From positions 1 through 24,693 of the IMG/VR virus record IMGVR_UViG_3300047550_002248: a DNA stretch of 24,693 nt. One strand, written 5' to 3'. A program made the position numbers and the translations under genes. The notes below the pieces were generated by a model. It was not told where the DNA came from and searched no databases. It was given only the letters and a program-made list of their open reading frames with translations. This DNA comes from a virus. Of the stretch, positions 16,424 through 24,693 are shown piece by piece. Within the stretch, counting starts at the first letter, position 1. Every line of letters starts with the position of its first letter.

Positions 16424-17953
16424 ATGACTGACATCAAACGCTTCAAGGCGATCTTTGAGGGACTGGATATCGCCTACGGAACCTACCGAATAGAGAAGGC
16501 GAGGGGAGATGGCAAACAAGCGGGAAAGGCCGTGGTGGTTAGACAGCCGCCCGTGGATGAACTATGGGTCAAGCATCTTCAGGGGGTTGAGCCTTCTCTT
16601 GGCATTATCCCTATCCGTGCTGATAACAGTTGCACTTGGGGCTGCATTGATATTGATCAATATCCCCTCGATCACAAAGGCGTTGTGGAAAAAATCGCGA
16701 GGCTGAAGCTTCCACTCGTCGTTTGCCGCTCTAAATCAGGCGGCGCTCATGTGTTCCTTTTTACTCAGACACCTGTTCCTGCGGCGGACATGCGCAAGTA
16801 CCTTACTGCTGCGGCTGCACTGCTCGGGGAGGCGGGCAGAGAGATTTTCCCCAAACAAAGCGAGATCCTTGTTGATCGAGGCGATACCGGGAACTTTCTG
16901 AACCTGCCTTACTTTGGCGGTGATGAAACGCTGCGTTATGCGATTAAGAGCGATGGCGCAGCAGCCACGCTTGAAGAGTTCTACAGACTCTATGACGAAG
17001 CGGTTCAAGCGCCACCGCTCACGTTTCCCGAGGAGCCACCAAAGCCCGAACAACCCATTAAAGACGGTCCCCCATGCTTACAAACGTTATGCGCGCAGGG
17101 CTTTCCTGAAGGCACCCGCAACAATGGCCTTTTCAACATCGGCATCTACCTTAAGCGCACAGGCGCGCATAACTGGGAAGATAAGCTTGCTGAGCACAAT
17201 CAAAAGTACTTTGGTCCCCCATTGGGATTGAGCGAGTTGCAGGTTATCGTTAAGCAACTGACAAAAAAAGATTACAAGTACAAGTGTAAAGATGCGCCGA
17301 TTAATTCATTTTGTAATGCTGGTCTTTGTCGTACTCGTAAGTTTGGCATTGGTGCCGATGGCCCTGATGCTCCTCAAATGTCTGCCCTCTCCAAGTACAA
17401 CAGTGAGCCTCCATTATGGTTCCTGGATATCAACGGAAGGCGGGTTGAACTCGACACGGAGAGTCTATACAACCAAGCGGCATTCCAGAAAGCCTGCATG
17501 GAAAAGATCAATCTCCTTCCGCCGACGCTACGCAAACAGGATTGGGAACAGGTCCTCAATGCACTCTTGCGCGAAATGGTCGAATTAGAGCAGATCCAAG
17601 AGGCATCAGAAGACACCACCATCACAGGACGATTCACAGCGCTCTTGGAAGAGTTCACCACGCACATCCAGCAGGCCATGGACCGTGATGAAATCCTCAT
17701 GGGCAGACCCTGGGTGGATGAGGAAGATCAGAAGGTTTATTTCCGCATCAAGGATCTTGAAGACCATCTCACGCGCAATAACTTCAAGGGCCTGAGTGCG
17801 CCTAAGATGGCCCAGAGACTGCGAGACATTGGCGGTGAGCCGTTGCCCTTGTTCCTTAAAGGTCGCACCACGCGAGCGTGGCGTATCCCGTGCTTCCCGA
17901 AACAAGAAGCACCTTTTGAAACGCCGACTGCGAAGAAGGGGAGTCCGTTCTAA
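16424..17953 (+). CDS. Archaeo-eukaryotic-type (AEP) DNA primase with Cys cluster
   Basis: This 509-residue protein would make primers for the polymerase encoded two genes downstream. The N-terminal 180 residues carry AEP motifs: CIDIDQY (74-80) with the metal-binding Asp76 and Asp78, SKSGGAHVF (103-111) with the S-x-H nucleotide-binding signature, then KQSE and GNFLNLPYF (144-164). A second region holds GTRNNGLFNIGIYLKR (230-245), a motif of the primase C-terminal type. A Cys cluster at 288, 297 and 302 (YKCKD...SFCNAGLC), with Cys218 and Cys223 nearby, could bind zinc or an Fe-S cluster. The last ~170 residues are unassigned and helical. There is no helicase domain of the T7 gp4 kind. The start is ATG 16424 with a weak GAGAAAG site. 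The stop overlaps the next start (TAATG). Confidence 0.8.
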   Translation: MTDIKRFKAIFEGLDIAYGTYRIEKARGDGKQAGKAVVVRQPPVDELWVKHLQGVEPSLGIIPIRADNSCTWGCIDIDQYPLDHKGVVEKIARLKLPLVVCRSKSGGAHVFLFTQTPVPAADMRKYLTAAAALLGEAGREIFPKQSEILVDRGDTGNFLNLPYFGGDETLRYAIKSDGAAATLEEFYRLYDEAVQAPPLTFPEEPPKPEQPIKDGPPCLQTLCAQGFPEGTRNNGLFNIGIYLKRTGAHNWEDKLAEHNQKYFGPPLGLSELQVIVKQLTKKDYKYKCKDAPINSFCNAGLCRTRKFGIGADGPDAPQMSALSKYNSEPPLWFLDINGRRVELDTESLYNQAAFQKACMEKINLLPPTLRKQDWEQVLNALLREMVELEQIQEASEDTTITGRFTALLEEFTTHIQQAMDRDEILMGRPWVDEEDQKVYFRIKDLEDHLTRNNFKGLSAPKMAQRLRDIGGEPLPLFLKGRTTRAWRIPCFPKQEAPFETPTAKKGSPF

Positions 17954-19452
17954 TGAGTACGCAGAAAGTGTTTGGTCCTCCCGGGACCGGCAAGACCACG
18001 TATCTCTTGAACGTGGTTCAAGAAGAACTATCCAAGGACACCGCCTCAAACAAAATTGGCTACTTTGCCTTCACCCGCAAAGCGGCCAATGAGGCGCGTG
18101 ATCGAGCGATTGTGAAGTTCCCGCATCTGAACCCAATCACGGACTTTCCCTGGTTCAGGACGTTGCATTCACTGGCCTTTCGCTGTCTTGGGATTAACAA
18201 GAGCGAGATGATGCAAGATGAGAACTACAAAGAGTTTGGCAAGACCTGCGGCTTGCAAATCGTTACAGAAAATGACGCTGATGGGTTTGTCTCGCGCGCG
18301 GACAACGCCATCCTGAACGAGATCAACCTTGCACGAATCAAGGGCCTTGATCTGAAGGCTCACTATAACCAGTCCTCGCTTGATATCGAGTGGTTTCACT
18401 TTGAGTATGTGGAACGCGCCTACCGTCAGTACAAAGGCGAGAACGGTCTGCTTGACTTCACCGATCTGCTTGAGATGATCGTGCAAGAGCCTTACCCGCT
18501 ACCGCGCCTTGACGCATTGATTGTGGATGAATCACAAGATCTCTCACGCCTGCAATGGCAGTTAGTCAAAGAACTTGCCAAGCGCGCTACCCGTGTTTAT
18601 CTGGCAGGTGACGATGATCAGGCGATCTATAACTGGGCCGGGGCTGATGTGGATTCGTTTCTCACCTACCCAGGCGAAGTCAAAGTTTTAAACAAGTCCT
18701 ATCGCATCCCTGCTAAGGTCCATATGCTTGCCGAGCGCGTCGTTAAACGCATCCACCATCGACAGCCTAAGCAGTGGTCTTCGCGAGACGAAGAGGGCAG
18801 CATCCAAACTTACGGACATTTCTCCCAGGTCAACATGACAGAGGGCGAGTGGCTCGTGATGGCCGCTGCGAACTACATGCTCGATGACATGCCTGAATGG
18901 CTCAAGAGCCAGGGGCTGCTTTTCGAGCGCCACGGCCACCGGAGCATTGGCGAGAAAGTGCTTGCAGCGGTGTACGGCTGGGAGGCGCTGCGCAAGGGCA
19001 ATGAGGTGCCCCTGTCGATTGTGAAAACGATTTACTCGTATCTTGACTCAGGGCTCATTGCTAAAGGATTTAGAACCTTGAACAGTGCGCCCGAGGATCG
19101 GATGTACTCGATCAAGGATCTTCATGCGAAGTGGGGCTTGCTGACTGATGGCATTTGGCACGAGGTGCTGACCAAGATCAGCATAAGTCAGCGTGAGTAC
19201 ATCATTGCTTTACTGCGGCGTGGCGTGAAACTTAATGCAGCGCCGAAGATCAAATTGTCCACGATCCATGGCGCAAAAGGTGGAGAAGCTGATAATGTTC
19301 TACTTTTAACAGACCTGTCTACCAAGTTTGCTAAAAGTTATGACACCAACCCTGATGACATCAATCGATTGCTTTATGTCGGCATCACACGAACCCGCAA
19401 TGTGTTGCACTTGGTGCTACCCCAATACAATCAAAAGGGCTTTCGCCTGTGA
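17953..19452 (+). CDS. UvrD/Rep-like SF1A DNA helicase
   Basis: This 499-residue helicase has all key SF1A motifs in order: Walker A GPPGTGKT (8-15), motif Ia AFTRKAANEA (39-48), TLHS (70-73), motif II VDESQD (191-196), motif III GDDDQAIYNWAGA (219-231), motif IV SYRIP (249-253), motif V LSTIHGAKGGEADNV (about 430-445) and motif VI LLYVGITRTRN. These residues couple ATP hydrolysis to 3'-5' movement on ssDNA in the UvrD/Rep/PcrA family. At 499 residues it is shorter than bacterial UvrD (about 720), with smaller accessory subdomains. The start shares a base with the primase stop. No DnaB-type helicase is present in the window, so this enzyme may unwind the replication fork for the phage polymerase. 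Confidence 0.9.
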   Translation: MSTQKVFGPPGTGKTTYLLNVVQEELSKDTASNKIGYFAFTRKAANEARDRAIVKFPHLNPITDFPWFRTLHSLAFRCLGINKSEMMQDENYKEFGKTCGLQIVTENDADGFVSRADNAILNEINLARIKGLDLKAHYNQSSLDIEWFHFEYVERAYRQYKGENGLLDFTDLLEMIVQEPYPLPRLDALIVDESQDLSRLQWQLVKELAKRATRVYLAGDDDQAIYNWAGADVDSFLTYPGEVKVLNKSYRIPAKVHMLAERVVKRIHHRQPKQWSSRDEEGSIQTYGHFSQVNMTEGEWLVMAAANYMLDDMPEWLKSQGLLFERHGHRSIGEKVLAAVYGWEALRKGNEVPLSIVKTIYSYLDSGLIAKGFRTLNSAPEDRMYSIKDLHAKWGLLTDGIWHEVLTKISISQREYIIALLRRGVKLNAAPKIKLSTIHGAKGGEADNVLLLTDLSTKFAKSYDTNPDDINRLLYVGITRTRNVLHLVLPQYNQKGFRL

Positions 19453-19458
19453 GCAACC

Positions 19459-19488
19459 ATGCATACTAACTTCTCGGCTTCGATATGA
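19459..19488 (+). other. Nine-codon mini-ORF ending on the polymerase start
   Basis: ATG 19459 opens a nine-codon frame whose TGA (19486-19488) overlaps the polymerase ATG (19485-19487) as ATGA. The polymerase itself has no clear ribosome site in the preceding 20 bases. Termination of a short upstream ORF could hand ribosomes over to it. The mini-ORF also lacks a good ribosome site, so this is weak. Confidence 0.2.
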
Positions 19489-21350
19489 GCACACTCCCGC
19501 TATTCCCGCCCACTTCCGAGTGGGTTCCCCCAGCCTCTTTTCCTGATCTGTCTGACGCTAAGGAGATTGCAATTGATCTGGAAACGTGTGACCGAAACCT
19601 GGAACGGTTTGGCCCCGGATGGCCAAGAAATGACGGTTACATTGTCGGCTACGCCATTGCTGTTGACGGATGGCGAGGCTACTACCCAGTTGCTCATGAG
19701 GGTGGAGGTAACCTTGACCGTGGGATTGTTGAGCGATTCATTCGACGTGTGCTTGACCTTCCATGTCCCAAGATCATGCACAACGCCGCCTACGATCTTG
19801 GATGGCTTCTCGCCGCTGGATTTAATGTGCGGGGTCGAATCATTGACACCATGGTCGCTGCTGCTTGCATCGATGAAAACCGATTCAGCTACGCCCTTAA
19901 CGCCCTCGGTTTCGATTACCTCAAAGAGGTTAAATCTGAACAAGGACTAAAAGAAGCCGCACAAGATTTCGGTGTTCACGCCAAGAAAGAACTGTGGCGC
20001 TTGCCTGCCATGTTTGTGGGCGATTATGCCGAGCAAGATGCTGCGCTCACGCTCAAGCTTTGGCAGCATTTCAAGACCGTCCTGCGCACGGAAGAAGTTG
20101 AATCGATCTTTGACCTAGAGACTGAACTGCTGCCTGTCCTGGTTGGCATTACCAAGCGCGGCATTCGTTTTGATCGGGATCGCGCAGCCAAGCTTGTGGG
20201 CGAGATGCAAGACAAAGAAGCTCAACTGGTCAAGGCCATTCGCAAGGCCTGCGGTTCGCCCGTGGACATCTGGGCCGCAGCCAGCATCGCTACGGGGTTT
20301 GACAAACTCGGGATCCAATACCCAAGGACCACGAACGGCCTGCCAAGTTTCACCAAGAGTTTCTTAGATACTCACGAACACCCGATCTGCAAACAGATCG
20401 TTGAAGCACGCGAACTCAACAAGACCCACGGCACGTTCTTGCAGCCTTACCTGGACTTCTCTGCGCACGATGGTCGCATCCATCCACACATCAATCAGAT
20501 CCGATCCGATGATGGCGGCACGGTCACAGGCCGACTCTCCATGGCCAACCCTAATCTGCAACAGGTGCCCGCGCGCCACGAGGTCATTGGTCCGATGGTG
20601 CGGGGTTTATTTCTGCCTGAAGAAGGGCAGATGTGGGCTGCGAATGACTTCTCCTCTCAAGAGCCGCGTTTACTGGTTCACTATGCAAGCCTCTTGAACC
20701 TGCCTGGGGCCGATGACATGGTCGCTGCTTACAGGCAAGACCCCCGCACGGACTTTCACCAGATGGTCGCGGACATGGCAGGCATTAAACGCAAGGCTGC
20801 CAAGACAATCGGTTTGGGGTTGATGTACGGCATGGGCAAACAAAAGCTTGCCAATAGCCTTGATCTGCCACTTGATGAAGCCGATGAACTGATGAAGAAG
20901 TTTCACCAGAACGTACCCTTCCTGCGTGGTACGGTGGATGCTGTGATGCGCCGCATCGAGCACCGTGGTTCAGGAGGCGCGATCCGTACACTCTTAGGTC
21001 GCAAGTGCCGCTTCCCGCTTTGGGAGCCCACTGAGTGGGGCATCAACAAGGCACTGCCTTTTGAGGAGGCCTCGATTAAATACGGCCCAAGGATCAAGCG
21101 CGCGATGACCTACAAAGGCCTAAACCGATTGATCCAAGGCTCTGCTGCTGATCAAACCAAGCGAGGTCTTGTTGAGCTTCACAAGCAAGGGTTTACGCTG
21201 CTCTTGCAGGTGCATGATGAGATTGCGCTCTCGGTCAACAACCGTGAAGAGGCCCAAGAGGCTGCGCACGTGATGGCCACTGCCGTGCAGCTTGAGGTGC
21301 CATCAATTGTTGATGTAGAGACTGGACGTTCCTGGGGAGAGGCTGCATAA
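19485..21350 (+). CDS. polA: Family A DNA polymerase with 3'-5' exonuclease
   Basis: This 621-residue replicative polymerase of the Pol I type lacks the 5'-3' exonuclease domain. The proofreading domain is complete: Exo I DLE (31-33), Exo II HNAAYD (99-104), Exo III YAEQD (181-185). The polymerase domain has TGRLSMANPNLQQVP (348-362), motif A DFSSQEPR with catalytic Asp388 and steric-gate Glu393, motif B RKAAKTIGLGLMYG (436-449) and motif C VHDE with Asp578. Residue Leu444 in motif B corresponds to E. coli Phe762, a position that is Phe, Tyr or Leu in phage polymerases. The start ATG 19485 has no clear Shine-Dalgarno site and gives a typical N-terminus. The stop overlaps a 29-codon ORF (TAATG). 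An intrinsic terminator follows. Confidence 0.93.
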   Translation: MSTLPLFPPTSEWVPPASFPDLSDAKEIAIDLETCDRNLERFGPGWPRNDGYIVGYAIAVDGWRGYYPVAHEGGGNLDRGIVERFIRRVLDLPCPKIMHNAAYDLGWLLAAGFNVRGRIIDTMVAAACIDENRFSYALNALGFDYLKEVKSEQGLKEAAQDFGVHAKKELWRLPAMFVGDYAEQDAALTLKLWQHFKTVLRTEEVESIFDLETELLPVLVGITKRGIRFDRDRAAKLVGEMQDKEAQLVKAIRKACGSPVDIWAAASIATGFDKLGIQYPRTTNGLPSFTKSFLDTHEHPICKQIVEARELNKTHGTFLQPYLDFSAHDGRIHPHINQIRSDDGGTVTGRLSMANPNLQQVPARHEVIGPMVRGLFLPEEGQMWAANDFSSQEPRLLVHYASLLNLPGADDMVAAYRQDPRTDFHQMVADMAGIKRKAAKTIGLGLMYGMGKQKLANSLDLPLDEADELMKKFHQNVPFLRGTVDAVMRRIEHRGSGGAIRTLLGRKCRFPLWEPTEWGINKALPFEEASIKYGPRIKRAMTYKGLNRLIQGSAADQTKRGLVELHKQGFTLLLQVHDEIALSVNNREEAQEAAHVMATAVQLEVPSIVDVETGRSWGEAA

Positions 21351-21439
21351 TGATTGCGGTAGTGTCCATAGCTACTTCTCCTGTTGTTGTGACGATGTTG
21401 GCCCGTGGTCCAAGGATCACGGGTCTTTTTTATGGCTAA
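21350..21439 (+). CDS. Possible 29-residue leader/coupling ORF across a terminator
   Basis: ATG 21350 shares a base with the polymerase stop (TAATG), and GGGGAGAGG sits 7 bases upstream, a strong ribosome site. The 29-codon frame encodes a hydrophobic peptide (IAVVSIATSPVVVTML then a basic turn). It runs through the whole terminator hairpin and its U-tract and stops at TAA 21437-21439, just past the next gene's ATG 21432. The placement fits a leader ORF whose translation would keep the terminator hairpin unfolded and deliver ribosomes to the next start. No homology is recognised, so the peptide sequence may not matter. Confidence 0.4.
   Translation: MIAVVSIATSPVVVTMLARGPRITGLFYG
21402..21431 (+). 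terminator. Intrinsic terminator after the polymerase gene
   Basis: Bases 21402-21410 pair with 21415-21423 to form a 9-pair stem (CCCGTGGTC with GATCACGGG, one G-U pair) with a CAAG loop. TC and six Ts follow (21424-21431). This is a textbook rho-independent terminator and the strongest in the window. The next gene's start codon begins at 21432, with no room for a promoter behind the terminator. That suggests controlled readthrough. Confidence 0.8.
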
Positions 21440-21725
21440 GAAGAAAGGCCGACCACGCCTGTGGTTTAAGCGCGAGAAAAAGCCCATCTCGCCCTCACGC
21501 AGGCAAACAAAACCATGGTGTACGGTGATGCTGCCGCTGGAAGCCTATGCCATGCTCACGGAGTTGAGTGAGTTTCATATCGTTTCGCGCTCCACCATTG
21601 CACACCGATTGATTTACGCGGAGTTTTTACGTACACTTTCTCGCGTAGACCCCGAGAAAGCTAAAGAAATGGAGAAAGAATTTGAAGCGCGCTTTCACAA
21701 TCCCGTTATCGAACGTGTTGAATGA
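21432..21725 (+). CDS. Small basic DNA-binding candidate (ribbon-helix-helix-like, AT-hook-like N-terminus)
   Basis: This 97-residue protein begins AKKKGRPRLWFKREKK, a basic arm with a GRPR core as in AT-hooks. From about residue 37 a strand (WCTVMLPLEAY) is followed by two helices (AMLTELSEF; SRSTIAHRLIYAEFLRTL), the strand-helix-helix order of MetJ/Arc-type regulators. A charged helix ends it. ATG 21432 was chosen as start. A GTG nine codons upstream lies inside the terminator stem. No good ribosome site precedes ATG 21432, which fits coupling to the 29-codon ORF that stops over it. As the first gene of the small-gene cluster, it may be a regulator, possibly acting on the palindromes between the divergent operons. 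The fold is inferred. Confidence 0.5.
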   Translation: MAKKKGRPRLWFKREKKPISPSRRQTKPWCTVMLPLEAYAMLTELSEFHIVSRSTIAHRLIYAEFLRTLSRVDPEKAKEMEKEFEARFHNPVIERVE

Positions 21726-22050
21726 GTTACAAGTACTCGTTCAATACGAAGTCCTGCCAGCCGAGGCGGGGTTGCCGGAGCAAATCGATATAAAAACCGC
21801 ATGGCTGGATCTTGAGCACCAGGATCGGCCAAGACGTGTCAACATTCTCGGTGCACTGACCGAGTCAAACCTCATGCTTTTGGAGGATGAAGCCTTTGAA
21901 CACCATCGATCGTTACAAAAGATTGTCCAAGACCGGGATCCGCGCCAACTTGAACTACTTCCAGAACCGTATAGATCGGTTGAAGCGGGAGCTACGCGAG
22001 TTGGAGTTCCAGTACCAATGCAATATCTCAGCATACTCGTGGAAGATTGA
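21682..22050 (+). CDS. Small phage protein of unknown function, start uncertain
   Basis: The frame gives 122 residues from TTG 21682, which has GGAG 7 bases upstream. GTG 21715 or TTG 21718 next to the previous stop would give 111 or 110 residues. The first part looks like a genuine beta-rich small protein: LQVLVQYEVLPAEAG, IDIKTAWLDL, RRVNILGALTESNLMLLEDEAFEHH. The last ~50 codons overlap the next gene in another frame, and their third-base pattern is less convincing. I know no function. It belongs to the coupled small-gene chain after the terminator. The opposite-strand frame over the same bases is longer but lacks a ribosome site. Confidence 0.5.
   Translation: MKRAFTIPLSNVLNELQVLVQYEVLPAEAGLPEQIDIKTAWLDLEHQDRPRRVNILGALTESNLMLLEDEAFEHHRSLQKIVQDRDPRQLELLPEPYRSVEAGATRVGVPVPMQYLSILVED
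21882..21886 (+). promoter_or_regulatory. Ribosome site GGAGG favouring a TTG start
   Basis: GGAGG directly abuts ATG 21887, too close for initiation there. It stands 9 bases before the in-frame TTG 21896. TTG 21896 is therefore the more likely start of the small coiled-coil protein. Confidence 0.45.
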
Positions 22051-22117
22051 CAATGAAGGAGAACCCTATGCAACACCTGACCGACCGACTGCGGCTCATG
22101 GCCGAGCAAATGACTGA
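21896..22117 (+). CDS. Small basic coiled-coil protein, TTG start
   Basis: This 73-residue protein starts at TTG 21896, or at ATG 21887 if the unusual spacing is accepted. It begins NTIDRYKRLSKTG and continues into a charged helix (NYFQNRIDRLKRELRELEFQ) with heptad-like leucines. A short tail rich in Pro and Ala follows. Its codons mostly end in C or G like the larger genes here, which supports it as coding. It overlaps the preceding gene by about 155 bases in another frame and the following gene by 50 bases. I recognise no family. A small coiled-coil phage protein could be an adaptor or an inhibitor of a host protein, but nothing shows which. Confidence 0.55.
   Translation: MNTIDRYKRLSKTGIRANLNYFQNRIDRLKRELRELEFQYQCNISAYSWKIDNEGEPYATPDRPTAAHGRAND
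22056..22061 (+). promoter_or_regulatory. Ribosome site AAGGAG deciding the next start
   Basis: AAGGAG stands 6 bases before ATG 22068 and sets that codon as the start. In-frame TTG 22047 and ATG 22053 have no such site. Confidence 0.65.
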
Positions 22118-22283
22118 CATGGAAGACGCACGCACGATCATGTATGCGGTCAATCACATTGAAGCAGCAAGGACTTGGAAGATCCGATGGGCCGAGGCTG
22201 ATGAAAAATTACACAAGCTTCACGCGATGCACGACAAACTACTGAGGGAATACAATGAATACAGAAAACAGCACGGAGACTGA
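22068..22283 (+). CDS. Small helical protein of unknown function
   Basis: This 71-residue protein is almost wholly helical and charged: QHLTDRLRLMAEQMTDMEDARTIM, then AARTWKIRWAEADEKLHKLHAMHDKLLREYNEY. Heptad spacing suggests a two-helix hairpin or a coiled coil. No catalytic or metal-binding motif is visible. It overlaps its neighbours on both sides (50 bases before, 29 after), as expected in this compact, coupled chain. No family recognised. Confidence 0.6.
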   Translation: MQHLTDRLRLMAEQMTDMEDARTIMYAVNHIEAARTWKIRWAEADEKLHKLHAMHDKLLREYNEYRKQHGD

Positions 22284-22425
22284 TCCGTTTCCAATTAGCC
22301 CTGAACAAATGAAGTGGCCGTTCAGAACAGAAAAAGAACGAAAAAAGATCATCAAATGGCAACACAAACAAAAAAGACGTGGTAAAGTAAACGAACTCGA
22401 TGACATCGAGTTAGCACCCTACTGA
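22255..22425 (+). CDS. Small highly basic protein (56 residues)
   Basis: ATG 22255 follows GAGGGA by about 6 bases and lies inside the previous gene's last codons. The product has an acidic, Ser/Thr-rich start (NTENSTETDPFPISPEQ), then a strongly basic stretch (RTEKERKKIIKWQHKQKRRGK) and an acidic end (NELDDIELAPY). Charge patterning of this type suits a nucleic-acid or protein-binding peptide. The overlap and good ribosome site support it as real, although it is short. No family recognised. Confidence 0.55.
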   Translation: MNTENSTETDPFPISPEQMKWPFRTEKERKKIIKWQHKQKRRGKVNELDDIELAPY

Positions 22426-22440
22426 TACAGGAGAAAGAAG

Positions 22441-22710
22441 ATGGAAGAACGTCAATGGAAGTCCGGGTCCGATGTCCTAGCAAAGTTTCGTACACAGCCT
22501 GCTGCCAAGACGCTTACGCGTTTTGATCTGCGTGGTGCAAAAGACATCGACAACCAACCAATCGAAGAGATCGAGTACTGTTTTCGCGGCGTCGGTTTAA
22601 TGGTCAACATTAAACGCGAACAACGCGACACCTGGATCCCACCGAGTGAGGATCCTTTCTACAAGGCCAAATGGGCCTTCTACAAGGCACTATTTTCAAC
22701 AGGAGAGTAA
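22441..22710 (+). CDS. Small phage protein of unknown function
   Basis: This 89-residue protein starts at ATG 22441 with AGGAGAAAG well placed upstream. It has a basic N-terminal half (WKSGSDVLAKFRTQPAAKTLTRFDLRG), a beta-like middle (IEEIEYCFRGVGLMVNIKRE) and an aromatic C-terminal helix (DPFYKAKWAFYKALF). There is one Cys and no known motif. The stop overlaps the next start as TAATG, so the next protein is probably co-translated. Good ribosome site and codon pattern make it a likely real gene. Confidence 0.6.
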   Translation: MEERQWKSGSDVLAKFRTQPAAKTLTRFDLRGAKDIDNQPIEEIEYCFRGVGLMVNIKREQRDTWIPPSEDPFYKAKWAFYKALFSTGE

Positions 22711-23171
22711 TGATGGAAGCAGTTAAGAAAGTCTCACCGCTCAAGGGCCGTAAGCTCGGTCCACGCAAAGGACCGTCACCTTTGAAGGGCCGTAAGCTCG
22801 GTCCACGCAAGCCTAAGCCCCTCGTCGTGCCCTTGGGTGTTTTGGAAGCCGTGCAGAAGTCAAAGCGCGACCCGATTGATGAAGCTATCAAACTTGGATT
22901 GAATGTTAATACGCTCTTGCAAGAGCGTGCTCAGAGCTACGGCACGTTTGTCTCGCTTGCCAAGACCGCGCAAGAGTTTAAGAGCGTGCTTTACAGGGAA
23001 CTTGGCTCAAGGAACAAGCGCCTTGCTGATGATCAGGCTGAAGCACTTGACATGATCCTTCATAAGATCGCTCGGATCATCAACGGCAATGCGGACCACG
23101 TTGACTCATGGGCTGACATCGCGGGCTACTCGACACTCGTTGCCGAGCGGCTGCAAGGCAGGTCGCTATGA
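22710..23171 (+). CDS. DUF6378-like phage protein with basic repeat arm
   Basis: This 153-residue protein starts at ATG 22710, with a second ATG at 22713 that has better spacing to AGGAG. The first ~35 residues are a very basic arm with two copies of PLKGRKLGPRK. The C-terminal ~80 residues match the look of the phage DUF6378 domain: YGTFVSLAKTAQEF, a middle helix, LDMILHKIARIINGNADHVDSWADIAGYSTLVAE. The ARI-(x)-G-(x)-D-(x)-DIAGY signature is characteristic. Its function is unknown in the literature I know. The Lys/Arg/Pro arm resembles nucleic-acid-binding tails and is probably an addition to the common domain. The stop overlaps the next start (ATGA). Confidence 0.65.
   Translation: MMEAVKKVSPLKGRKLGPRKGPSPLKGRKLGPRKPKPLVVPLGVLEAVQKSKRDPIDEAIKLGLNVNTLLQERAQSYGTFVSLAKTAQEFKSVLYRELGSRNKRLADDQAEALDMILHKIARIINGNADHVDSWADIAGYSTLVAERLQGRSL
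22743..22810. repeat. 26-base direct repeat, 42-base period, coding for PLKGRKLGPRK
   Basis: Bases 22743-22768 recur exactly at 22785-22810. The 42-base period gives two in-frame 14-residue units in the N-terminal arm of the DUF6378-like protein. Exact identity at the DNA level suggests recent duplication or ongoing slippage. Confidence 0.9.
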
Positions 23172-23410
23172 GATGCGATGACGATTTAAAAGAAACCATC
23201 CGGGCAAGCCAGGAGTTGATGATTAAAACCACTGCGCTTTTTAACAATGAGGATGCTGACACGGTCGTGTACGTGATGAGTTGGTTGATGGGTATTTACG
23301 TGCATAGTCTTGTCGATCGTGAGCTAATGAGCAAAGAACAGGCCTTGCAATCGATTCGTGAGCTTATCGATTCAGCCTATATCGCTCAAGGGGAGAACGA
23401 TGATGACTAA
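23168..23410 (+). CDS. Small acidic helical protein of unknown function
   Basis: This 80-residue protein starts at ATG 23168, overlapping the previous stop. It is helical and acidic (DDDLKETIRASQELMIKTTALFN) with a hydrophobic middle (DTVVYVMSWLMGIYVHSLV) that could be buried or membrane-associated, and an acidic end (GENDDD). No motif or family is recognised. It overlaps the next gene by 11 bases. Confidence 0.55.
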   Translation: MRCDDDLKETIRASQELMIKTTALFNNEDADTVVYVMSWLMGIYVHSLVDRELMSKEQALQSIRELIDSAYIAQGENDDD

Positions 23411-23570
23411 GGACCATGAAGCCATTGTCCACGTGATCAAAGTGGCGCTGGACCATCATGAGTGGCGGCTTGTGCGCCACTTAACACGGCTCATCGAGAT
23501 GCTGGATGCTGATGATGCATCGCACCTTGCTGACCCACCCGCTTTTCTAACACGTAGTGAGGATCTATGA
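23400..23570 (+). CDS. Small His/Asp-rich helical protein
   Basis: This 56-residue protein starts at ATG 23400 (or 23403) behind GGGGAG. It is a single long helical stretch (HEAIVHVIKVALDHHEWRLVRHLTRLIEML) with an acidic, Pro-containing tail. Several His and Asp residues are present but no recognised metal site. The stop overlaps the next start as ATGA. No family recognised. Confidence 0.55.
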   Translation: MMTKDHEAIVHVIKVALDHHEWRLVRHLTRLIEMLDADDASHLADPPAFLTRSEDL

Positions 23571-23866
23571 AAGTACATCTGACAAAATCACAGGCCGATG
23601 GCAAGGCCTTTGCAAACACGGCTCCCGAGCCAGTGTTCGTGCTCAATGGCCTGATCTATCTGCCTCACTACTGCATGCCAGTGTGGGTGCAGCCAGGATC
23701 ATTCATCACGTCACTGAACCACCGCACCAAGTTCATGGAGTACAAGGAAGACGAAAGCAAGAGGCTCTCTGCCTCGGAACTTTTTGCGCGTGGGGCGTTG
23801 GTTGAAGAAGATCTGCTCTGGCCACGTGAGTGGACCAAGGGCTGGCGCAACTGGTTGAGGCCCTAA
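23567..23866 (+). CDS. Small phage protein of unknown function
   Basis: This 99-residue protein starts at ATG 23567, overlapping the previous stop, with GAGG upstream. It is beta-rich and aromatic in its first half (PEPVFVLNGLIYLPHYCMPVWVQPGSFITSL). A charged helix (EDESKRLSASELFARG) and a Trp-rich end (LLWPREWTKGWRNWLRP) follow. The compact mix of strands and Trp residues suggests a folded domain. No motif is recognised. Confidence 0.6.
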   Translation: MKVHLTKSQADGKAFANTAPEPVFVLNGLIYLPHYCMPVWVQPGSFITSLNHRTKFMEYKEDESKRLSASELFARGALVEEDLLWPREWTKGWRNWLRP

Positions 23867-23868
23867 TC

Positions 23869-24234
23869 ATGGGAATGCTGACCGATTACGAGGCAAAGGC
23901 CTTCAGCTACGTTCAGCTACGCAAGACACCACCTTCGGTTGCTGAGGTGGCCTTGCATCTGATGACGTCCAGGCAAAACGCTCACCGCATTCTTACGAGT
24001 CTGGTTCGTAAAGGGGTACTCAAAAGCTTTATGCAAAAGCCTGCCAAACAACGCCATGAGCGACGTTACTGCATGCCTGATGCTGTGCCTATAGCGGCTA
24101 AGTTATCACCGCTCAAGGACAAAGCACCATTGAAACCGGCCGGTCGCCCACGGACCGAGGAAAAGATAAAAGAGATGAGCTTTTTTAACGATCCATTCAA
24201 CATGACAGGGGTGCGTCATGAGTCCTGCACATAA
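23869..24234 (+). CDS. Winged helix-turn-helix DNA-binding protein candidate
   Basis: This 121-residue protein starts at ATG 23869 with TGAGG 8 bases upstream. Residues 4-70 have the MarR/GntR-like winged-helix order: LTDYEAKAFSYVQLRK, a helix-turn-helix (SVAEVALHLMTSRQNAHRIL), a helix (SLVRKGVL) and a basic wing (KPAKQRHERRYCM). A Pro/Lys-rich linker with SPLKDKAPLKPAGRPR follows, including an AT-hook-like GRPR core. It could be a phage transcription regulator for the small-gene cluster or the divergent region. The HTH call is by pattern only. Confidence 0.6.
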   Translation: MGMLTDYEAKAFSYVQLRKTPPSVAEVALHLMTSRQNAHRILTSLVRKGVLKSFMQKPAKQRHERRYCMPDAVPIAAKLSPLKDKAPLKPAGRPRTEEKIKEMSFFNDPFNMTGVRHESCT

Positions 24235-24403
24235 GTTCGCCATGTTAGCCGCATGGCTTGAGGGTTACGCCGAGGGCTTACCTGACTACTGCACTAATGA
24301 GAAGTTCAAGATTAAAGAAGCAGCAGAGTTATTAATGGAAGTGTACGAGCAGCGCATGAAGGAAAAAGAAACATGGAAACAACATGCGGGGGATCGAGCA
24401 TGA
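24218..24403 (+). CDS. Small helical protein of unknown function
   Basis: This 61-residue protein starts at ATG 24218, 17 bases inside the previous gene, behind AGGGG. It consists of two helices: AHKFAMLAAWLEGYAEGL and FKIKEAAELLMEVYEQRMKEKETWKQ. The stop overlaps the next start (ATGA). No family recognised. Confidence 0.6.
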   Translation: MSPAHKFAMLAAWLEGYAEGLPDYCTNEKFKIKEAAELLMEVYEQRMKEKETWKQHAGDRA

Positions 24404-24612
24404 GCAAGATTATTAAGTTCACAGGTGTAACAAAATTAGATTTGCCAGTAGACAGGGTACTTGATGCGGCAAAAGAAACTCTTGATGGCGTAGTCATCAT
24501 GGGTTACACGACAGACGGGGAAGAATATTTTGCGTCAACCTACGCCGATGGCGGCACGGTGCTGTGGCTAGCGGAACGCATGAAGAAGATGTTATTAGAG
24601 GTGGAAGCATGA
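24400..24612 (+). CDS. Widespread small phage protein, unknown function
   Basis: This 70-residue protein starts at ATG 24400 behind GGGGGA; the earlier in-frame ATG at 24373 lies in the previous gene. It is a compact alpha/beta protein (KIIKFTGVTKLDLPVDRVLDAA, GVVIMGYTTDGEEYFASTYADGG, VLWLAERMKKMLLEV). I recognise the GEEYFASTYADGG...WLAERMK layout from small proteins seen in many phages and prophages; no function is known to me. The stop overlaps the next start. Confidence 0.7.
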   Translation: MSKIIKFTGVTKLDLPVDRVLDAAKETLDGVVIMGYTTDGEEYFASTYADGGTVLWLAERMKKMLLEVEA

Positions 24613-24693
24613 GCAGAGAAGCTATGAAACAACCCGAAGCCTTGTGGCTGGCTGATGCTTTGGATGACGAGTTCACGCAAGGCAGAATCAGTA
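24609..24693 (+). CDS. Start of a further small phage gene (truncated by window end)
   Basis: ATG 24609 overlaps the previous stop as ATGA, and the frame is open to the edge (28 codons). The product begins SREAMKQPEALWLADALDDEF, resembling the start of small phage proteins whose N-termini carry a PEALxLADxL motif. Function unknown. Confidence 0.55.
   Translation, partial: MSREAMKQPEALWLADALDDEFTQGRIS

Follow-up and report, generated by a model that had tools for sequence, protein, structure and literature searches.

A candidate small-RNA gene with a promoter signature in the end of a phage DNA polymerase gene

What is the role of a strong terminator that ends directly against the start codon of the next gene and is crossed by a short open reading frame? 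We addressed this question in a 24,693-nt virus record fragment (IMG/VR IMGVR_UViG_3300047550_002248; the whole of this stretch is called the window), in which the arrangement follows the gene for a DNA polymerase. The original prediction held that translation of the short leader ORF switches the terminator. Comparison with relatives suggests that a short phage RNA, unannotated and common to many freshwater-type phages, is a more probable reading of the locus than a leader-switched terminator. The interval is probably a phage small-RNA (sRNA) gene of about 74 nt, with its promoter in the polymerase end, its start at about G21358 and its terminator end at about 21431. If so, a whole environmental phage family related to Dishui Lake phage DSL-LC04 has an unannotated sRNA at a fixed position. 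The features discussed below are as follows.

19485..21350, + strand: family A DNA polymerase gene (Pfam DNA_pol_A, 2.9e-57; PHROG 17)
21323..21328, + strand: -35-like hexamer TGGACG, within the last polymerase codons (T enriched at a synonymous site; same 17-nt spacing in detached copies)
21334..21342, + strand: GGGGAGAGG, claimed as a ribosome site, which is the polymerase C-terminal codons W-G-E-A
21346..21351, + strand: -10-like hexamer CATAAT, overlapping the polymerase stop (conserved in terminator-bearing regions)
21350..21439, + strand: 29-codon leader ORF, MIAVVSIATSPVVVTMLARGPRITGLFYG and stop, passing through the hairpin (putative coding role)
21358..21431, + strand: predicted small RNA, about 74 nt, with +1 at G21358 and the T-run at its 3' end (initiator signature; folding z -3.5 for 21357-21431)
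21376..21382, + strand: TTCTCCT, an anti-Shine-Dalgarno-like motif (TCTCC/CTCC enriched in relatives)
21400..21431, + strand: intrinsic terminator, 11-pair hairpin and T6 (folding statistics; conserved in relatives)
21432..21725, + strand: ribbon-helix-helix-like gene, 97 aa (predicted fold; neither a promoter nor a Shine-Dalgarno site is visible for it)

Locus layout and terminator

The layout was as originally described, with correct coordinates: a terminator lies against the ATG at 21432, and a 29-codon ORF runs across its hairpin. The polymerase, which is nearest to that of the uncultured Dishui Lake phage DSL-LC04 (76%) and next to that of pelagiphage HTVC023P (51%), ends in a TAA (21348-21350) that shares its last base with the leader ATG (21350-21352). 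The hairpin and T-run adjoining the ATG were confirmed, while the hairpin proved larger than predicted, with 11 pairs from 21400 rather than nine from 21402. It spans 21400-21425 with a loop of 4, and is followed by T6 at 21426-21431 and directly by the ATG. GC skew at the post-polymerase site showed nothing special. Upstream of the polymerase gene, the window's primase (16424-17953) has a match to Pfam PF22548 (6.8e-13), the domain of archaeo-eukaryotic primases in TOTE conflict systems.

A stand-alone sRNA gene should have an intrinsic terminator at its 3' end, a promoter and start site of its own, and a conserved pairing motif. The 34-nt terminator has a minimum free energy of -20.5 kcal/mol (z -5.5; none of 200 shuffles was as good), and this hairpin was the top terminator match within 17000-24693. 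Identical or near-identical copies occur in 20 viral contigs, and these are also the 20 that carry close relatives of the downstream gene; the terminator is conserved in relatives. These data support a post-polymerase terminator that is real and conserved.

Promoter and start-site signatures at the polymerase stop

Relatives of the locus were gathered through four polymerase queries, one downstream-protein query and one hairpin pattern, and were collapsed to 141 distinct sequences following the polymerase stop. All are metagenome contigs and are mutually related. A terminator was detected 25-90 nt past the polymerase stop in 70 of these regions and was not detected in the other 71. The hexamer at the stop (the last five gene bases and the next base) was -10-like in 62 of the 70 terminator-bearing regions (CATAAT in 52, TATGAT in 7 and TATAAT in 3), while CATAAT occurred in 6 of the 71 others, holders being defined here by the terminator alone. 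Four of those six (L016, L019, L187 and L214) have a longer unit that the terminator filter missed. L104 and L105, nested in a unit-bearing clade, have kept CATAAT and lost the RNA body and terminator.

Seventeen bases upstream of the -10, terminator-bearing regions have TGGACC, TGGACG or TGGCCC, while the others mostly have CGGACC or CGGCCC. The first base of this -35-like element is a synonymous third position of the polymerase gene. It is T in 58 of 65 unit-holders compared to 13 of 68 non-holders, with nearby third-position backgrounds of 16% and 13% T, respectively. For this comparison, and for the tree below, the definition of a holder included the -10, leaving the -35 comparison as the only independent one. 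The window itself has the sigma70-like arrangement TGGACG-17-CATAAT (21323-21351), which takes in the ATG of the leader ORF and in which the -35 matches at only four of six positions.

The same spacing recurs where the unit has moved away from the usual polymerase end. The polymerase has an earlier end (..WGASMG) in L005, L086, L088 and L089, where TTTACA-17-CATAAT lies ahead of the same leader, and in the detached unit of L007 TTTACC-17-TATGAT lies upstream of the leader. L081 has an HNH endonuclease gene (L081:1819-2343) inserted between the polymerase gene and the RNA unit, and the last codons of the HNH gene form the new promoter, again TTTACC-17-TATGAT. In the detached units of L005, L007 and L088, and after the HNH gene of L081, the 17-spaced promoter has 9-10 of 12 matches; the background rate for hexamer pairs with at least 9 of 12 matches at this spacing is 1.9e-4 per position. 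Comparison thus shows a promoter signature that overlaps the polymerase stop. On the polymerase tree, the presence of the unit requires 13 changes, at least seven of them forced by well-supported branches, and it is therefore not the habit of a single clade.

Which residue ends the polymerase goes with the presence of the RNA unit. Most holders end in ..GEAA or ..GEAV, while most non-holders end in ..GEAK or otherwise. The polymerase C-terminus seems to be shaped by the promoter of the unit (21340-21350 in the window, and in relatives).

The likely start of transcription was examined in an alignment of 65 distinct units anchored on the -10. The sixth base past the -10 is a pyrimidine in 62 of the 65 units, and the seventh is a purine in 52 and G in 47. 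A pyrimidine at -1 and a purine at +1, at this distance from the -10, is the usual preference of a start site. By group, the respective counts were 13/13 and 9/13 in the window's clade, 29/30 and 29/30 in the group carrying the heptamer GCAGTTG, and 20/22 and 14/22 in the remainder. The comparison therefore shows a start-site signature seven bases downstream of the -10, and an own promoter and start site are supported by comparative promoter and initiator signatures. In the proposed mechanism, a sigma70-like promoter would be embedded where the polymerase gene ends, in its final codons and stop codon, transcription would begin at about G21358, and the hairpin and T-run would end the RNA at about 21431. 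This RNA would lack the leader ATG, which is 8 nt upstream of its predicted start.

The window's RNA region had no match at threshold in Rfam, and in the literature covered, which was partial, such an RNA was not found described in these phages.

The leader ORF

A -10 box that overlaps a stop codon can mimic the start of a leader ORF. The strong ribosome site claimed for it, GGGGAGAGG, is present. It belongs to the conserved polymerase C-terminus (..SWGEAA) and is equally frequent in relatives lacking the leader ORF or terminator, and is therefore not independent evidence. The stop of the ORF over the downstream ATG also comes cheaply, because the T-run and the Lys-rich start of the next gene (ATGGCTAAG, ATGATTAAG, ATGACTAAG) provide off-frame stops.

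The leader ATG is present in 34 of the 65 units and absent in 31. Among the 34, the ORF is open past the T-run in 27 and stops before it in 7. Its frame is no more open than a control frame: in the 11 closest sequences both frame 0 and frame 2 are open in 11/11, and outside the close clade they are open in 16/23 and 14/23, respectively, where shuffles predict 54%. Neither an alternative antiterminator structure nor regulatory codons were seen by eye in the leader. As its ATG coincides with the conserved -10 box, is lacking in nearly half of the units, and opens a frame no more open than frame 2, the idea that the leader ORF drives the system is not supported. Related phages with the hairpin and no overlapping ORF, which the original prediction had named as evidence against it, do occur in the wider family and do not occur in the close clade.

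Within the close clade the leader ORF is open in all 13 sequences, length changes ahead of the hairpin come in multiples of three, and all four isolated core substitutions are synonymous. The same four substitutions fall in unpaired positions of a GUAG/CUAC hairpin. Fewer third positions vary in the leader (6 of 24 codons) than in the downstream gene (34 of 75; p 0.10), pointing to a constraint on the nucleotides. Similarly, the window and L086 differ by one change over 73 leader sites, compared to 20 changes over 75 third positions of the downstream gene. The leader part thus seems to be constrained at the nucleotide level, which in the close clade could be partly due to an ORF. As a general explanation, a selected coding frame was rejected from the frame openness, the substitutions and the third-position data.

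These results bear directly on a coupled system, in which ribosomes that have finished the polymerase restart at the overlapping ATG, translate through the hairpin, so permitting transcription, and re-initiate at the downstream ATG. The open ORF and synonymous core substitutions of the close clade are what such coupling would give. Its stop/start overlap is also retained in each of three settings upstream: at the polymerase stop, as TAATG or TGATG; in L005 and L007, where the frame is extended to an ATGA overlap; and past the HNH gene of L081, as TGATG. Furthermore, only in the window's clade is the downstream gene without a Shine-Dalgarno site. Against it stand the equal openness of frame 2, the relatives that lack the ATG, a ribosome site dictated by polymerase codons, the low variation of leader third positions, and a predicted RNA that would exclude the ATG; in addition, the peptide frame across the hairpin is not the same in the L001 and window lineages. 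We regard coupling as improbable overall, and as a possibility at the level of the close clade. In ribosome-mediated attenuators such as the trp and his leaders, a leader ORF crosses a terminator, and the window's leader ORF does so too. Unlike them, it has no evident regulatory codons, its peptide is not kept, the ORF is absent in about half of the relatives, and the predicted transcript begins past the ATG.

Motif, structure and possible action of the predicted RNA

The preferred reading, an sRNA gene, also calls for a conserved pairing motif. TCTCC is the commonest 5-mer in the leader part (43 of 65 units), and CTCC occurs in 48 of 65 units compared to 17% in shuffles. The UCUCC-rich part ahead of the terminator is found across all groups, in different reading frames. 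A terminator together with a conserved UC-rich motif is thus shown by the comparison. In many relatives the predicted RNA consists of a short 5' hairpin, a UC-rich stretch (UCUCCU) and the terminator hairpin. The window's own 5' hairpin is weak (z 0.3 for the leader part alone).

In the GCAGTTG group (group A), the 5' hairpin mostly begins at or next to +1. The heptamer, which was the criterion for picking the group, is invariant within it and bordered by much less conserved sequence. The hairpin arms co-vary (GGGG/CCCC, GAAGC/GCUUC, UGAGG/CCUCA and AGGGC/GCCCU), and none of 2000 permutations of the right arm was as good, in a kind of test that kinship among sequences inflates. This anchored permutation test was used in place of RNAalifold, which on a plain MAFFT alignment of the group performed poorly because the stem shifts register.

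If the hairpin simply closed the replication operon and did nothing else, a strong intrinsic terminator immediately past the last replication gene would be accounted for. This reading would leave unexplained the initiator signature and that of the -10/-35, the conservation of UCUCC, the co-variation in the 5' hairpin of group A and the movement of the unit away from the polymerase, and we consider it very unlikely. A role as a replication primer was also considered, with evidence neither for nor against it.

If the sRNA is made, its UCUCCU would be likely to base-pair with phage or host mRNAs at ribosome-binding sites of the GGAG type. We infer from the signatures and the motif that the RNA is made in cells and acts in trans through such pairing. 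The complement of UCUCC is any Shine-Dalgarno site, so the motif carries a direct, testable prediction on translation control during infection. A further and tentative possibility is a widespread, undescribed anti-Shine-Dalgarno family of phage RNAs that would be driven by a promoter in the polymerase stop codon, would be made while the replication genes are on and would repress Shine-Dalgarno-dependent mRNAs, while the repressor-like gene downstream in the window's clade, having no such site, would escape.

Two other pairings were discarded. Sequestration of a GGGGAG in the polymerase end by UCUCC is not borne out, since UCUCC showed no association with an upstream GGGGAG (Fisher p 0.57). Pairing of the group A loop GCAGUUG with CAACUGC at gene starts was not supported, as CAACTGC showed no enrichment near gene starts, and no target was found.

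In several relatives (L030, L012, L103 and others) the ribosome-binding site of the next gene is a near-identical AGAAAGGAG, complementary to the TTTCTCC/UCUCC stretch of the RNA, with 10 consecutive complementary bases by eye in L012. In these relatives the AGAAAGGAG site of the gene that follows the unit is a possible self-target of the RNA.

In form, the predicted RNA resembles the Neisseria sibling sRNAs NmsRA and NmsRB, in which a UC-rich stretch that can pair with the Shine-Dalgarno region of the targets mediates translational downregulation (PMC5362039). Like the predicted window RNA, these are short and have a stem-loop followed by a single-stranded UC-rich anti-Shine-Dalgarno stretch. 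They are bacterial, while the window RNA is from a phage, and no homology is claimed; the window scored 18.5 bits against the NmsR family (RF02877), compared to a gathering score of 52. PreS of lambda and VpdS of VP882 are phage-encoded sRNAs that act on host or phage mRNAs, and the 6S RNA of lambda is counted with the phage sRNAs that depend on Hfq (PMC12197685). The predicted RNA resembles PreS and VpdS in being short and encoded in a phage genome, a likeness of kind.

What, then, of the gene beyond the terminator? Its product had no Pfam or PHROG match. An AlphaFold model (pLDDT 81) gave best fold matches that were mostly ribbon-helix-helix proteins (Arc, CopG, TacA, AmrZ and VapB), all with E >1. 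Between the window and L005 there are 21 synonymous and no non-synonymous changes over 70 codons, a mark of strong purifying selection on the gene. In many groups a homologue comes after the polymerase, and it usually has AGAAAGGAG and often a visible promoter. The window's clade, with L007 and L008 included, is alone in having the terminator immediately ahead of the start and neither a visible promoter nor a Shine-Dalgarno site. As the gene is nevertheless strongly selected, in this clade it would need some readthrough of the terminator, either leaky or by antitermination. Thus the readthrough part of the original model is retained, together with its conserved terminator, while the leader ORF is not supported as the driver.

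The arrangement resembles that of lambda, where the promoter pR' is followed closely by the terminator tR' and then by a gene that needs readthrough, and where Q antiterminates. This pR'-6S-tR' logic is the closest known, sharing with the window a promoter, a nearby terminator and a gene reliant on readthrough. A terminated leader of this type, before a gene with no other promoter, was found in the window's clade and not in the other groups. The predicted RNA differs from 6S in being about 74 nt and in that the next gene has its own promoter in many relatives.

By the same logic, the unit could be a promoter-proximal attenuator. Transcription of the ribbon-helix-helix-like gene would then start from the promoter at the polymerase stop, the hairpin would act as a regulated terminator, passed by leakage or antitermination, and the short RNA would be a by-product. 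This would fit the window's clade, where the terminator adjoins the ATG with no other promoter or Shine-Dalgarno site in view, as well as the strong selection on the gene and the co-occurrence of hairpin and gene in all 20 contigs. In other groups a separate promoter and/or a AGAAAGGAG site comes after the promoter-RNA-terminator unit, so that there the unit does not serve the next gene, and it is retained whether or not the next gene possesses its own promoter. An attenuator is therefore rather unlikely, and an sRNA gene is preferred.

In about 20 units of the GCAGTTG group (L103, L065, L132 and others), the terminator loop carries a -35-like TTGC or TTGT 17-18 bases before a TACACT -10, and in these the terminator of the RNA therefore overlaps the promoter of the next gene.
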